Assembly: GCF_022809715.1 (NCBI RefSeq)
Contig: NZ_CP094459.1
Span: 558,001 to 622,000 of the forward strand
Length of the DNA: 64,000 bases
Direction: 5' to 3'
DNA from: Burkholderia pyrrocinia
GTDB lineage: Bacteria > Pseudomonadota > Gammaproteobacteria > Burkholderiales > Burkholderiaceae
Shown here: positions 20,639 through 56,423 of the stretch, one piece after another
Layout: the number at the start of each line of letters is the position of its first letter
How positions within the stretch are numbered: position 1 is the stretch's first letter
Made by a program: the position numbers and the translations under genes
Notes under the pieces: model-generated
The model's input: only the letters and a program-made list of their open reading frames with translations
Database searches by the model: none
Told to the model about the DNA's origin: nothing

Positions 20639-20715
20639 TGGTCGGGGTGAGAGGATTCGAACCTCCGGCCTCTACGTCCCGAACGTAGCGCTCTACCAGG
20701 CTAAGCTACACCCCG
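20639..20715 (-). tRNA. tRNA-Pro (anticodon CGG)
   Basis: Read on the minus strand, this 77-nt gene has the acceptor stem CGGGGTG / CACCCCG, a D arm around AGCTTAGCCTGGTAGAGC, the anticodon arm CTACG-TTCGGGA-CGTAG with anticodon CGG, the T arm with GGTTCGAATCC, discriminator A and an encoded CCA. All stems pair. It reads CCG codons, very frequent in this GC-rich genome. Between it and ispB (20716-20896) there is no gene; a TATAGT at about 20780 on the minus strand could be its -10. Confidence 0.95.
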
Positions 20716-36945: not shown

Positions 36946-38157
36946 ATGCTCAACTGGGATGACGAGAAGACTGCCGTAACTCCCGCGAGCGGAGCGCAGC
37001 ACAATGCGATGCGCGCCCCCGCAGGAGTGGCTGTCGGAATGCAGGCTGCGTCGCCTGCCGCCCATCAGGTCCGCGACATTTTCGAAGGCGATCTTGCGGT
37101 GCCGCCGCAAGCATCGGCTGTTCCCGCCGGCGGTTCGGAAGCGCGGGTCAATGTCGCCGACAAGCGCATCATCAACGGCCAGACTGACGTCAATCAGCTG
37201 GTGCCGTTCAAATACAAGTGGGCGTGGGAAAAGTATCTGGCCGGTTGCGCGAACCACTGGATGCCGCAGGAAATCAACATGTCCCGCGACATCGCTCTGT
37301 GGAAGGACCCGAACGGTCTGACCGAGGACGAGCGCCGCATCGTGAAGCGCAACCTCGGCTTCTTCGTGACGGCCGATTCGCTCGCGGCGAACAACATCGT
37401 GCTCGGCACGTACCGCCACATCACGGCGCCCGAGTGCCGGCAGTTCCTGCTGCGCCAGGCGTTCGAAGAGGCAATCCACACGCACGCATATCAATATATT
37501 GTCGAATCGCTCGGTCTCGACGAAGGCGAGATCTTCAACGCGTACCACGAGGTCGCGTCGATCCGCGCGAAGGACGAATTCCTGATCCCGTTCATCCACA
37601 CGCTGACGGACCCGGCCTTCAAGACCGGCACGCTCGAAGCGGATCAGAAGCTGCTGAAGTCGCTGATCGTGTTCGCCTGCATCATGGAAGGCCTGTTCTT
37701 CTATGTCGGGTTCACGCAGATCCTCGCACTCGGCCGCCAGAACAAGATGACGGGTGCTGCAGAGCAATATCAGTACATCCTGCGCGACGAGTCGATGCAC
37801 TGCAACTTCGGCATCGACCTGATCAACCAGATCAAGCTCGAGAACCCGCATCTCTGGACCGCGGAATTCCGCGCCGAGATTCGCGAGCTGTTCAAGCAGG
37901 CTGTCGAACTCGAATACCGCTACGCCGAGGACACGATGCCGCGCGGCGTGCTGGGTTTGAACGCGTCGATGTTCAAGAGCTATCTGCGCTTCATCAGCAA
38001 CCGCCGTTGCCAGCAGATCGGCCTCGATCCGCTGTACCCGAACGAGGAAAACCCGTTCCCGTGGATGAGCGAGATGATCGACCTGAAGAAGGAGCGCAAC
38101 TTCTTCGAGACGCGTGTGATCGAGTATCAGACGGGGGGCGCGCTGTCCTGGGAATAA
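36946..38157 (+). CDS. nrdB: Ribonucleoside-diphosphate reductase, beta subunit NrdB (class Ia)
   Basis: The radical-generating diiron subunit. The 403-residue product has a variable N-terminus of about 75 residues ([11 protein letters not shown] start), then [26 protein letters not shown], the metal-ligand helices [19 protein letters not shown] and [17 protein letters not shown], and the C-terminal tail ending in [16 protein letters not shown], which binds NrdA. It follows nrdA on the same strand. Confidence 0.97.
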
Positions 38158-38330
38158 CCCGCAGCAGCGAACCCGTCACATGATGGAGCAGCCGGCGGCC
38201 TCTCGGCCCCGGCCCAAGGTTTAGGAGCAAGAACGCCTGATGCAAAGCATGCCCGGTGCCTTAGCGGCCCAACGACACGACAGGCACTTTGCGAACCCTT
38301 CAGTGGGATGGGCAAACTTCCCTCCGGATA

Positions 38331-38542
38331 AAGCGGACGGCCGTGTGGCGGTCCGCTTGATCAAGCGATTAGGGGTAGCGGCGCGAGGTGCGCCGGCTAC
38401 CGACTTGATTTGGCGCGCGAGGCCATGTGGTCACGCGCGCCATACCGTATTCATTAGCGTAAGCGCGCGGTATCCGCGTACGCCGATGAATAGCCCGCTT
38501 CGAAGCGCACGTCCTGAACAGCGTCCGCGGGAAGCGGGTTTT
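38331..38542 (+). ncRNA. Candidate structured RNA between nrdB and the H1-like gene
   Basis: Five strong hairpins follow one another: AAGCGGAC / GTCCGCTT (38331-38358); ATCAAG...GGTAGC-GGCGC / GCGCC-GCTACC...CTTGAT (38360-38409); TGGCGCGCG / CGCGCGCCA (38411-38442); TATTCAT-GCGTA / TACGC-ATGAATA with inner CGCGG-TAT-CCGCG (38448-38492); and CCCGCTTC / GAAGCGGG (38494-38538) followed by TTTT. A weaker GTGCCT / AGGCAC pair is at 38256-38287. The only open frame (38240-38566) has mixed third positions, unlike the strong GC3 bias of nearby genes. This could be an independent RNA or the leader of the H1-like gene. I recognise no known family. The rest of 38158-38594 shows nothing else. Confidence 0.5.
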
Positions 38543-38594
38543 GACGAAGGGTGTAGTTTGAACTGACTCTCATCTGAACCTGAAGGAGAACAAC

Positions 38595-39248
38595 ATGGCT
38601 ACCGCCAAGAAGAAACCGGCTGCTAAGAAAGTTGCTGCCAAGAAGACCGTCGCGAAGAAGGCCGCTGCTCCGGCGAAGAAGGCCGCTGCAGTGAAGAAGG
38701 TTGCTGCGAAGAAGGTCGCGGTGAAGAAGGTTGCCGCGAAGAAGGCAGCACCGGCGAAGAAGGCCGCTGCGAAGAAGGTTGCGGCAAAGAAGGTCGCAAC
38801 GAAGAAGGTTGCAGCCAAGAAGGTCGCAGCGAAGAAAGTCGCAGTGAAGAAGGTTGCTGCGAAGAAGGCAGCGCCGGCCAAGAAGGCCGCTGCGAAGAAG
38901 GTTGCAGCCAAGAAAGTCGCAGTGAAGAAGGTTGCTGCGAAGAAGGCCGCACCGGCCAAGAAGGCTGCTGCCAAGAAGGCCGCGCCTGCGAAGAAGGCTG
39001 CTGCCAAGAAGGCTGCGCCTGCGAAGAAGGCCGCTGCGAAGAAGGCTGCACCCGCCAAGAAGGCTGCCCCTGCTGCGAAGAAGGCTGCCGCTCCGGCGAA
39101 GAAGGCTGCTGCTCCGAAGAAGGCCGTCGTGAAGAAGGCTGCACCGGCAACGACCGCGTCGACCGCATCGGTTGCGCCGGCATCGGGCGTGAAGACCGCG
39201 CTCAACCCGGCAGCGGCATGGCCGTTCCCGACCGGCAGCCGTCCGTAA
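38595..39248 (+). CDS. Histone H1-like Lys/Ala-rich DNA-binding protein
   Basis: The 217-residue product is almost wholly made of AAKK-type repeats: KKVAAKKVAVKKVAAKKAAPAKK blocks recur about three times and KAAPAKKAAAK recurs about four times. It resembles the C-terminal domain of eukaryotic H1 and the bacterial H1-like (HctB-type) proteins and should bind DNA non-specifically through lysines. The last 35 residues (SVAPASGVKTALNPAAAWPF and after) are not repetitive. It has a good ribosome-binding site (GAAGGAGA). The nucleotide repeats suggest a length that can vary between strains. Confidence 0.88.
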   Translation: MATAKKKPAAKKVAAKKTVAKKAAAPAKKAAAVKKVAAKKVAVKKVAAKKAAPAKKAAAKKVAAKKVATKKVAAKKVAAKKVAVKKVAAKKAAPAKKAAAKKVAAKKVAVKKVAAKKAAPAKKAAAKKAAPAKKAAAKKAAPAKKAAAKKAAPAKKAAPAAKKAAAPAKKAAAPKKAVVKKAAPATTASTASVAPASGVKTALNPAAAWPFPTGSRP

Positions 39249-39317
39249 TCGCGGCTGACCAGCATCACCCGGGCACTCACGTGGTGTCCGTGGGTTGAGT
39301 AGCGCTACTCAATCAGT

Positions 39318-39350
39318 CCCGCCATCTGGCTCAGGTGGCGGGATTTTTTT
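39318..39350 (+). terminator. Terminator after the H1-like gene
   Basis: CCCGCCA / TGGCGGG with a loop that can close further is followed by ATTTTTTT. It lies about 70 nt after the stop. Confidence 0.85.
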
Positions 39351-39392
39351 CGTCCGTATTCGCCCATGTACCGGCCGCGGCGAGTACGGACG

Positions 39393-39425
39393 AAAAAAAA
39401 CGCATGTGCAGCTTCGCACATGCGT
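39393..39425 (-). terminator. Terminator of the glycine-zipper lipoprotein gene
   Basis: On the minus strand, CGCATGTGC / GCACATGCG with loop GAAGCT is followed by eight T. Confidence 0.9.
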
Positions 39426-39461
39426 TCGACTGCGGCTTGCGCCGCATGCTGAGGTACCCGG

Positions 39462-55790: not shown

Positions 55791-56189
55791 ATGAAGAATC
55801 GTTTCATCGTCGTTGCCGCGGCGCTCGTTTGCGCCGCCGCTGCAGCATCCGTATCCGCGTTCGCTCAGGAGAGCGACGCTGCCGCACCGGCGCGTGCGCG
55901 CCAGGCGCAGCTCGGCGATCCGTACGTGCCGCCGGCCGCGCGCAAGCCGACCGCCGGCACGCAGACGACGGGCGCCGCGCTGCATGCGCAGGTGGTGCGC
56001 AAGCTCGCGCGGCAGTTCGACTCGGCCGATACGCAGAGCACAGGTTCGATCACCGAGGCGCAGGCGCGCGCGGCCGGGCTCGGTTATGTCGCGAACCACT
56101 TCCGGCAGATCGATTCGGGCGGCAGCGGCCGCGTGTCGTTCGCCGACGTGCAGCGCTATATGCAGGCACGCAGCACGAGCCAGCAGTAA
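55791..56189 (+). CDS. Secreted EF-hand-like protein
   Basis: The 132-residue product has a signal peptide (MKNRFIVVAAALVCAAAAAS, cleavage around AFA-QE) and two EF-hand-like loops. Loop 1 (DTQSTGSITEAQ) and loop 2 (DSGGSGRVSFAD) keep the first Asp and the central Gly, but position 3 is Gln or Gly and position 12 is Gln or Asp rather than Glu. Calcium binding is therefore uncertain. Such proteins are common in Burkholderia and of unknown function. The neighbouring S10 lipoprotein is possibly in the same operon. Confidence 0.78.
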   Translation: MKNRFIVVAAALVCAAAAASVSAFAQESDAAAPARARQAQLGDPYVPPAARKPTAGTQTTGAALHAQVVRKLARQFDSADTQSTGSITEAQARAAGLGYVANHFRQIDSGGSGRVSFADVQRYMQARSTSQQ

Positions 56190-56210
56190 GCGCGGCGCGT
56201 GGTGAACAAA

Positions 56211-56248
56211 CGGGGGCGGAACCTGCTGCGCGGCGGGTTCCGCCCCCG
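56211..56248 (+). terminator. 13-bp hairpin after the EF-hand gene
   Basis: CGGGGGCGGAACC pairs perfectly with GGTTCCGCCCCCG (loop TGCTGCGCGGCG). It starts 22 nt after the stop. No T run follows, so the mechanism (termination or mRNA end protection) is open. The gap 56190-56538 also holds an AT-rich patch at 56296-56330 that could be the promoter of the sugar operon. Confidence 0.5.
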
Positions 56249-56423
56249 TGCACATGGCGCGGCCGTCGCGTCACGCGCGCAGCGTATCTCGCCTGAATTC
56301 TCATTATCTGGACAACGCATTCAAATATTGGAGACGAGTGCGTGCGCTCCTACAATCCGAAGCACATCGACAGCTTCGGACCCACGCATCGCGCGGCGCC
56401 CGACGCACACGGAGACACATTCC

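Follow-up and report, generated by a model that had tools for sequence, protein, structure and literature searches.

Conserved and covarying hairpins upstream of a histone H1-like gene across Burkholderiales probably form a cis-regulatory mRNA leader

The window analyzed here, a 64,000-nucleotide stretch of the Burkholderia pyrrocinia genome (contig NZ_CP094459.1, positions 558,001 to 622,000), contains on its plus strand nrdB and, downstream of it, the gene for a protein of the histone H1-like family. H1-like proteins condense DNA, and the setting of their dose in bacteria is known best from Chlamydia. The nrdB stop codon (ending at 38157) and the H1-like start codon (38595) are separated by a gap of 437 nucleotides, and it is this gap, together with the genes on either side, that is described below. 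Assignment of the downstream gene is supported by Pfam and also by a match to NCBIfam NF038053 (129.4 bits against a cut-off of 80). The protein varies in length from 119 to 267 residues among relatives, and its end, which resembles KTALNPAAAWPFPTGSRP, is kept in most loci read, a feature missing in genus g52 (L273, L274, L277, and L286–L288). The features of the locus are as follows.

36946 to 38157, plus strand: nrdB, class I ribonucleotide reductase small subunit, the upstream neighbor (Pfam PF00268, E 4.7e-92).
38221 to 38293, plus strand: 5′ domain of the putative leader, with predicted stems 38221-38225/38236-38240 and 38241-38253/38283-38293 (RNAalifold; conserved in 49 dereplicated family gaps).
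38297 to 38322, plus strand: 5′ strand of a proposed long-range closing helix (consensus fold and pair counts in 38 sequences).
38333 to 38356, plus strand: hairpin H1.
38373 to 38402, plus strand: hairpin H2.
38412 to 38441, plus strand: hairpin H3.
38449 to 38491, plus strand: hairpin H4, the order-wide core, with a near-invariant lower stem, ATTCATT/(G)ATGAAT, and a covarying upper stem (alignment and pair counts).
38492 to 38540, plus strand: hairpin H5, which abuts H4.
38539 to 38542, plus strand: TTTT after the last stem, not conserved as a terminator U run.
38549 to 38586, plus strand: linker to the start codon, with the 3′ strand of the proposed long-range helix at 38549-38551, 38555-38560, 38569-38574, and 38580-38586 (pair counts).
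38583 to 38588, plus strand: ribosome-binding site AAGGAG of the H1-like gene (read in the sequence; invariant in 38 aligned family rows).
38595 to 39248, plus strand: histone H1-like protein gene of the HctB/HC2 type, 217 amino acids with Lys/Ala-rich repeats (Pfam PF07382, HC2, 95.6 bits).

Folding of the complete gap yields -199.3 kcal/mol, against -168.9 ± 5.8 kcal/mol for shuffled sequences (z = -5.2, with none of 100 shuffles as low). The stretch 38331-38542 alone gives z = -6.1 (20 shuffles), a value equaled or surpassed by only 2 of 602 pieces of the same size (212 nt) drawn from both strands of the window. An initial annotation had placed five successive stem-loops in this stretch, and they prove to be real, both in folding energy and in compensatory changes, which exceed a tree-based null in all five. 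The short loops that it attributed to them do not extend to the fifth hairpin, which has a long imperfect interior; the last stem is indeed followed by four T residues (GGG at 38536-38538, TTTT at 38539-38542). The element is also larger than first described, beginning at about 38218 and continuing as far as the H1-like ribosome-binding site, with conserved sequence outside the hairpin stretch at 38218-38330 and from about 38530/38541 to 38594. Two other strong folds lie on the plus strand of the window. The strongest of all (39221-39432, z = -11.0) holds a terminator-like hairpin after the H1-like gene (39315-39345) and another on the opposite strand (39427-39398), each ending in a T run and then CGTCC, and the second occupies 56181-56392 (212 nt, z = -6.5).

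A plus-strand open frame spans 38240-38566. Its third-position GC content (GC3) of 0.59 compares with 0.83 in nrdB and 0.71 in the H1-like gene, as the initial annotation had stated in saying that it lacks the bias of its neighbors; it is not the only open frame in the gap, as had also been stated, since minus-strand frames overlap the gap too. Read from a conserved ATG in 49 dereplicated relatives, the frame varies among at least 15 lengths, most of them between 70 and 120 codons. Given its changing length and the absence of the neighbors' GC3, a coding role was rejected, and these sequence properties make coding by the frame unlikely. The proposal that the bases are constrained by pairing and not by coding is, by contrast, supported by the compensatory changes in all five stems.

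Plain DNA similarity detects the gap in its own genome and in all 60 others of the genus among 101 genomes searched, and in none of the 40 from other families of the order. Across the family, 184 of 299 genomes, from 14 of the 25 genera, reach E <= 0.01, although a few of these matches are weak; the matches listed in a pattern scan include Burkholderia, Paraburkholderia, Caballeronia, Trinickia, Pandoraea, and Pararobbsia as well as metagenome bins. A repeat or mobile element was rejected on finding one copy in the genome, other matches covering only 18-30 bases. Between the window and 38 Burkholderia relatives (38 of 48 loci kept, the rest having been dropped on nrdB length and alignment checks), identity is 0.966 over the gap as a whole and 0.977 over the final 200 nt, versus 0.928 at third codon positions of nrdB. 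At one locus (L033) the end of nrdB is shifted, and the gap was set to the usual length.

The pairing itself is well preserved. For 65 hairpin pairs in 38 family sequences, 92.6% of cells are paired; displacing the partners by 1-3 columns leaves no more than 45.0%. Both partners have changed in 29 of the pairs, where shuffles give 14.6. In 127 family sequences, a G-test for covariation against a tree-based null returned no pair at E < 0.05, probably because changes are fixed in whole clades. The event-based test devised after this negative scan compares compensatory events on the tree with those obtained when substitutions are moved to random branches, in 200 null runs. Hairpins H1, H2, and H3 show 16, 13, and 11 events against null means of 1.2, 1.5, and 0.7, values reached in none of the 200 runs; H5 shows 3 against 0.5 (2 of 200), and H4, which hardly varies within the family, 1 against 0.0 (at most 2 of 200). 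The covariance analysis proposed in the initial annotation thus favors all five stems, each matched in at most 2 of 200 runs (the pairwise G-test scan giving 0 pairs), with the proviso that the tested structure is the consensus of the very sequences tested and is favored accordingly. Broken pairs in H1, H2, H3, and H5 are not significantly fewer than in the null. Covariation in the two stems of the 5′ domain is weak, amounting to 0 and 1 compensatory events, which the null equals in 200 and 26 of 200 runs, respectively.

Covariance models extend the element well past the range of DNA similarity. A model of 139 positions (R1) found 31 of 300 genomes of the order, and a model of H4 alone (R2) found 54 of 399 at E <= 0.001 and 48 at E <= 1e-9. 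The strong R2 matches span six Burkholderiales families (f1, f3, f4, f8, f10, and f18), and in a sample of the phylum 4 of 249 genomes match, all of them within the order. Outside the Burkholderia-like group, an H1-like gene lies directly downstream in 43 of 44 strong loci, the last of which (L301) coincides with a contig end; 41 of these genes were called by a script for Lys/Ala-rich open frames and two, L254 and L276, by eye, the gene of L276 being cut off by the end of its contig. The same association holds closer to the window, where the H1-like start, recognized by its Lys/Ala-rich frame, adjoins the element in 89 loci out of 90 in the family (one is truncated by its contig end) and in 116 of 120 pattern loci from among at least 120 matches, the other four lying at the end of the sequence examined. 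Ten further family genomes admitted under laxer filters all have the gene, nine by script and one (L317) by eye. Six weak R2 matches (E 2.9e-5 to 6.2e-4) are without an H1-like gene and were dropped as chance. Across lineages, then, the element is found directly upstream of one gene and on its strand, as is characteristic of a cis-acting leader.

With nrdB the association is looser. Of 44 strong loci, 34 have nrdB upstream in the same orientation, within the sequence examined. In the ten loci without it, upstream frames were viewed for seven and include, by reading, a LysR-like regulator (L292) and a divergent frame (L262). In genera g43, g45, and g64 the element accompanies the H1-like gene at a distance of about 10 kb from nrdB or on a different contig, and in genus g78 nrdB is likewise not beside them. 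Conversely, R2 finds no match in any of five genomes (G127, G110, G107, G118, and G113, all of 2 Mb or less) that have a true nrdB with no H1-like gene within 1.5 kb. From this comparison one further genome (G108) was left out, its downstream sequence being absent, and NrdB matches in G120 and G121 (30% and 27% identity) were rejected as not true nrdB. That the element stays with the H1-like gene when nrdB is elsewhere, and is absent from these five genomes, indicates that it belongs to the H1-like gene. The dependence runs one way only. Three genomes (G114, G106, and G128) have an H1-like gene near nrdB and no core hairpin, and the H1-like profile is commoner than the element: it matches 97 of the 399 genomes of the order at E <= 1e-10, 32 of them above its cut-off, against 48 strong H4 matches, so the element is not indispensable. 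In short, the element follows the H1-like gene rather than nrdB, and the gene does not need the element.

These distributions bear on the idea that the hairpins serve a joint nrdB–H1-like operon, blocking exonucleases or being cut so that parts of the transcript decay at different rates. The frequent presence of nrdB upstream would suit such a processing or stability element, as would the tight spacing in family f18 (L268–L271), where H4 begins only about 30-36 nt after the nrdB stop. The element is nevertheless kept in the 10 of 44 loci without nrdB beside it, next to other upstream genes where these were viewed, and the near-invariant lower stem of H4 exceeds what a protective stem would need; a role in processing is accordingly considered quite unlikely. 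The alternative offered in the initial annotation, a regulatory leader of the H1-like gene, is strongly favored by the persistence of the element beside that gene when nrdB is elsewhere.

H4 is the part that can be followed through the order. There, 94.7% of its cells are paired and 6 pairs have changed on both sides, with 35 double-changed cells against 7.7; on a tree built from the hairpin itself, 4 compensatory events are counted where the null gives 0.5, and 10 breaks where it gives 17.5, and none of 200 runs equals either value. Secondary structure in the leader is therefore kept by compensatory change, in five hairpins within the family and in H4 across the order. Of 43 distant leaders, 42 have another stem immediately after H4, scored as present when the minimum-free-energy fold pairs 4 or more of the first 9 bases. 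H4 and H5 alone seem, from the f18 loci, to be the minimal element; in one of these loci (L268), H5 is directly followed by CTCCC, which lies opposite GGAG in the ribosome-binding site. The invariance of most of the lower stem, ATTCATT/ATGAAT, could also be explained at the level of DNA, with H4 as an inverted-repeat site for a transcription factor and not an RNA hairpin. The variable loop length of H4, its covarying upper stem, its G-U pairs, and the presence in the family of four neighboring hairpins that also covary all speak for RNA, and leave a DNA-level site very improbable.

The initial annotation also raised the possibility of an independent small RNA, and pointed to the TTTT at the end of H5. 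Of 49 family sequences, 40 have a run of four T residues there and 9 have three. The next 8 nt contain 3 to 6 T residues in 27 distant loci, often interrupted, with an unbroken run of six in four, all among the five f3 loci. A terminator scan called nothing at H5–TTTT and one terminator after the H1-like gene (39315-39345), and no consensus promoter was found in the gap. H5 is thus, on sequence criteria, a conserved hairpin rather than a conserved terminator, which makes an independent small RNA less likely. Such an RNA would start upstream in the gap, end at H5–TTTT as a stable product of about 330 nt, whether independent or derived from the leader, and act in trans, possibly as one side of a dual-nature 5′ UTR. 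Its attractions are the H5 stem with its TTTT, the 6-T runs of family f3, and the precedent of B. cenocepacia, in which, according to the main text of PMC5688073, 5′ UTRs also yield short RNAs and candidate small RNAs end in 4 to 9 U. Against these stand a T run of only 3-4 in 49 of 49 family sequences and often interrupted in distant ones, the silence of the terminator scan at H5, conservation that continues downstream of H5 up to the start codon, and the want of any strong match away from an H1-like gene. The small-RNA proposal does not hold up well under these observations and is judged unlikely. Table 1 of PMC5688073 lists 15 small RNAs, the last on replicon 1 at 3666557 between BCAL3348a and BCAL3349; judging by tag order, none of those listed should lie near BCAL3427. 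This tag is given to the histone H1-like HctB of B. cenocepacia J2315 in a passage of PMC11054960, and its name and family suggest that it is the same gene as the H1-like gene of the window.

The consensus fold suggests how a leader might act on translation. It pairs 38297-38322 with 38549-38586, a linker in which most positions are kept in 70-100% of 49 family sequences, and brings CCTTCAG (38297-38303) opposite the complementary CTGAAGG (38580-38586) in the region of the ribosome-binding site. In 38 sequences 96.0% of the cells of this long-range helix are paired, and one pair, 38314-38559, shows a clear exchange, being A-U in 25 sequences and G-C in 9. The four parts of the helix have 0, 0, 1, and 0 compensatory events, the single event being reached by 9 of 200 null runs, and show no significant deficit of broken pairs. 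Its duplex energy is mostly no better than with shuffled upstream sequence (mean z -0.8, below -2 in 10 of 49). Pandoraea has CTCCT in the 5′ strand and AGGAG at the site, which would preserve the pairing with other letters, in a duplex again not better than shuffles. The segment 38296-38307 (CCCTTCAGTGGG) could form a small local hairpin in place of the long-range pairing; in two relatives (L073 and L077) this hairpin is, by eye, extended and the anti-SD match reduced.

Exposure of the site itself was calculated in two sets of leaders, one locus (L068) being left out of the family tests and the contig-end locus L301 out of the distant-leader test. On average AAGGAG is unpaired with a probability of 0.32 in the full leader; deleting the 5′ domain raises this to 0.53 and shuffling it to 0.50. 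The real leader gives a lower value than its shuffled mean for 43 of 48 sequences, and for 39 of them no more than one of 10 shuffles is as low, these 48 being related and not independent trials. Among six SD-bearing genes of the window the H1-like gene has the least exposed site, at 0.20 in this comparison; the other five, a small baseline, lie between 0.36 and 0.88. Masking of the ribosome-binding site by the fold of the 5′ domain is therefore predicted by these folding models, and with exposure tests on its side it is better supported than the long-range helix, for which tree-aware support is absent. In distant families exposure is 0.30, versus 0.34 with the upstream sequence shuffled, and is lower in 28 of 43 leaders; masking there would, in the models, be local.

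A highly conserved 5′ domain and alternative pairings of 38296-38307 are also what an attenuator or riboswitch might present, the 5′ domain binding a small molecule, such as a nucleotide, and H5 serving as terminator or expression platform. The 5′ domain, however, is largely rewritten in Pandoraea, and the full gap that includes it was not found by DNA similarity in the 40 genomes of other families; no Rfam riboswitch matches, and the terminator feature is not conserved. On balance, small-molecule sensing of this type is held to be improbable.

Taken together, the covarying hairpin set upstream of the H1-like gene in six Burkholderiales families is probably an mRNA 5′ leader that controls translation in cis. 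In the Burkholderia–Paraburkholderia–Pandoraea group, folding models suggest that the 5′ domain folds back on the region of the ribosome-binding site, and that this fold-back, through CCTTCAG and CTGAAGG, would hold the five hairpins in a closed multi-branched loop. The site would thus be closed by default and translation would stay low for as long as the fold persists; for other families the same models would hide the site in local pairing beside H5. In contrast to the freely covarying H1–H3, the lower stem of H4 is near-invariant and may be a recognition site for a trans-acting factor. A first candidate would be the H1-like protein itself, a very basic nucleic-acid binder, in a case of autogenous control, and a metabolite or another RNA-binding protein is a possible alternative. 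In such a scheme the leader would be transcribed with its gene, its opening would be regulated, and the H1-like protein would be the factor. The full proposal, with H4 as a receptor, most likely for the H1-like protein, whose occupancy sets the opening of the masked site and so provides autogenous dosage control of a bacterial histone-like protein, is advanced tentatively, as a reading less likely than not.

No family of Rfam 15 matches the element. In the window, Rfam 15 reports only a tRNA (20642-20715) above threshold; in the gap at E <= 10 it gives two matches, the best to SraB with 18 bits versus 130 and on the other strand. It gives none over threshold in 18 related loci and, in nine loci at E <= 1, four sub-threshold matches, none on H4–H5. 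A known RNA was rejected on the basis that no Rfam 15 family exceeds its threshold, in agreement with the initial annotation, which recognized no family. A published candidate structured RNA of Burkholderiales, the Burkholderiales-1 motif, resembles the element in kind and order and could be the same thing; it is known here from its row in a table of PMC2864571, which gives no Rfam accession. The main texts examined on small RNAs of B. cenocepacia, B. thailandensis, and B. pseudomallei contain no histone or nrd passage on the gap, and one unrelated mention of H-NS. Those of three B. cenocepacia studies, PMC5688073 included, do not mention BCAL3426–BCAL3428, and the one paper found for BCAL3427 concerns surface proteins. 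A description of the gap was not found in the literature covered; a prior listing is possible, for instance in the small-RNA tables of PMC4035088 and PMC3521395, which are arranged by tag or coordinate.

The element is rated here as a cis-regulatory leader, a kind of element already known. If this reading is true, it is likely a built-in switch controlling the amount of a DNA-packing protein made. The results argue for taking the gap off the list of candidate small RNAs. A leader element spread over six Burkholderiales families gives a concrete handle on the question of H1-like dosage, the covariance model finds the leader of the H1-like gene across the order, and the H4 hairpin can be used as bait for the factor that reads it.

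Among known systems, the 5′ UTR hairpins of rne and the leaders of ribosomal-protein genes are autoregulated leaders. Like the present element, they combine a structured 5′ leader and a highly conserved hairpin with the gene of a nucleic-acid-binding protein; they differ in that binding of the own product is here only a candidate, and in that no Rfam family matches. Structured short 5′ UTRs from the same genus, in B. cenocepacia, offer a second comparison, 82 of them being reported in the main text of PMC5688073 to yield short transcripts; that text mentions no histone. The closest parallel in terms of target comes from Chlamydia, where, according to PMC3469542, the small RNA IhtA holds down translation of the histone H1-like protein HctA. 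An RNA restrains the synthesis of an H1-like protein there and would do so here, but IhtA is a small RNA in its own right that targets the hctA mRNA, whereas the Burkholderiales element is attached in cis and is much larger.
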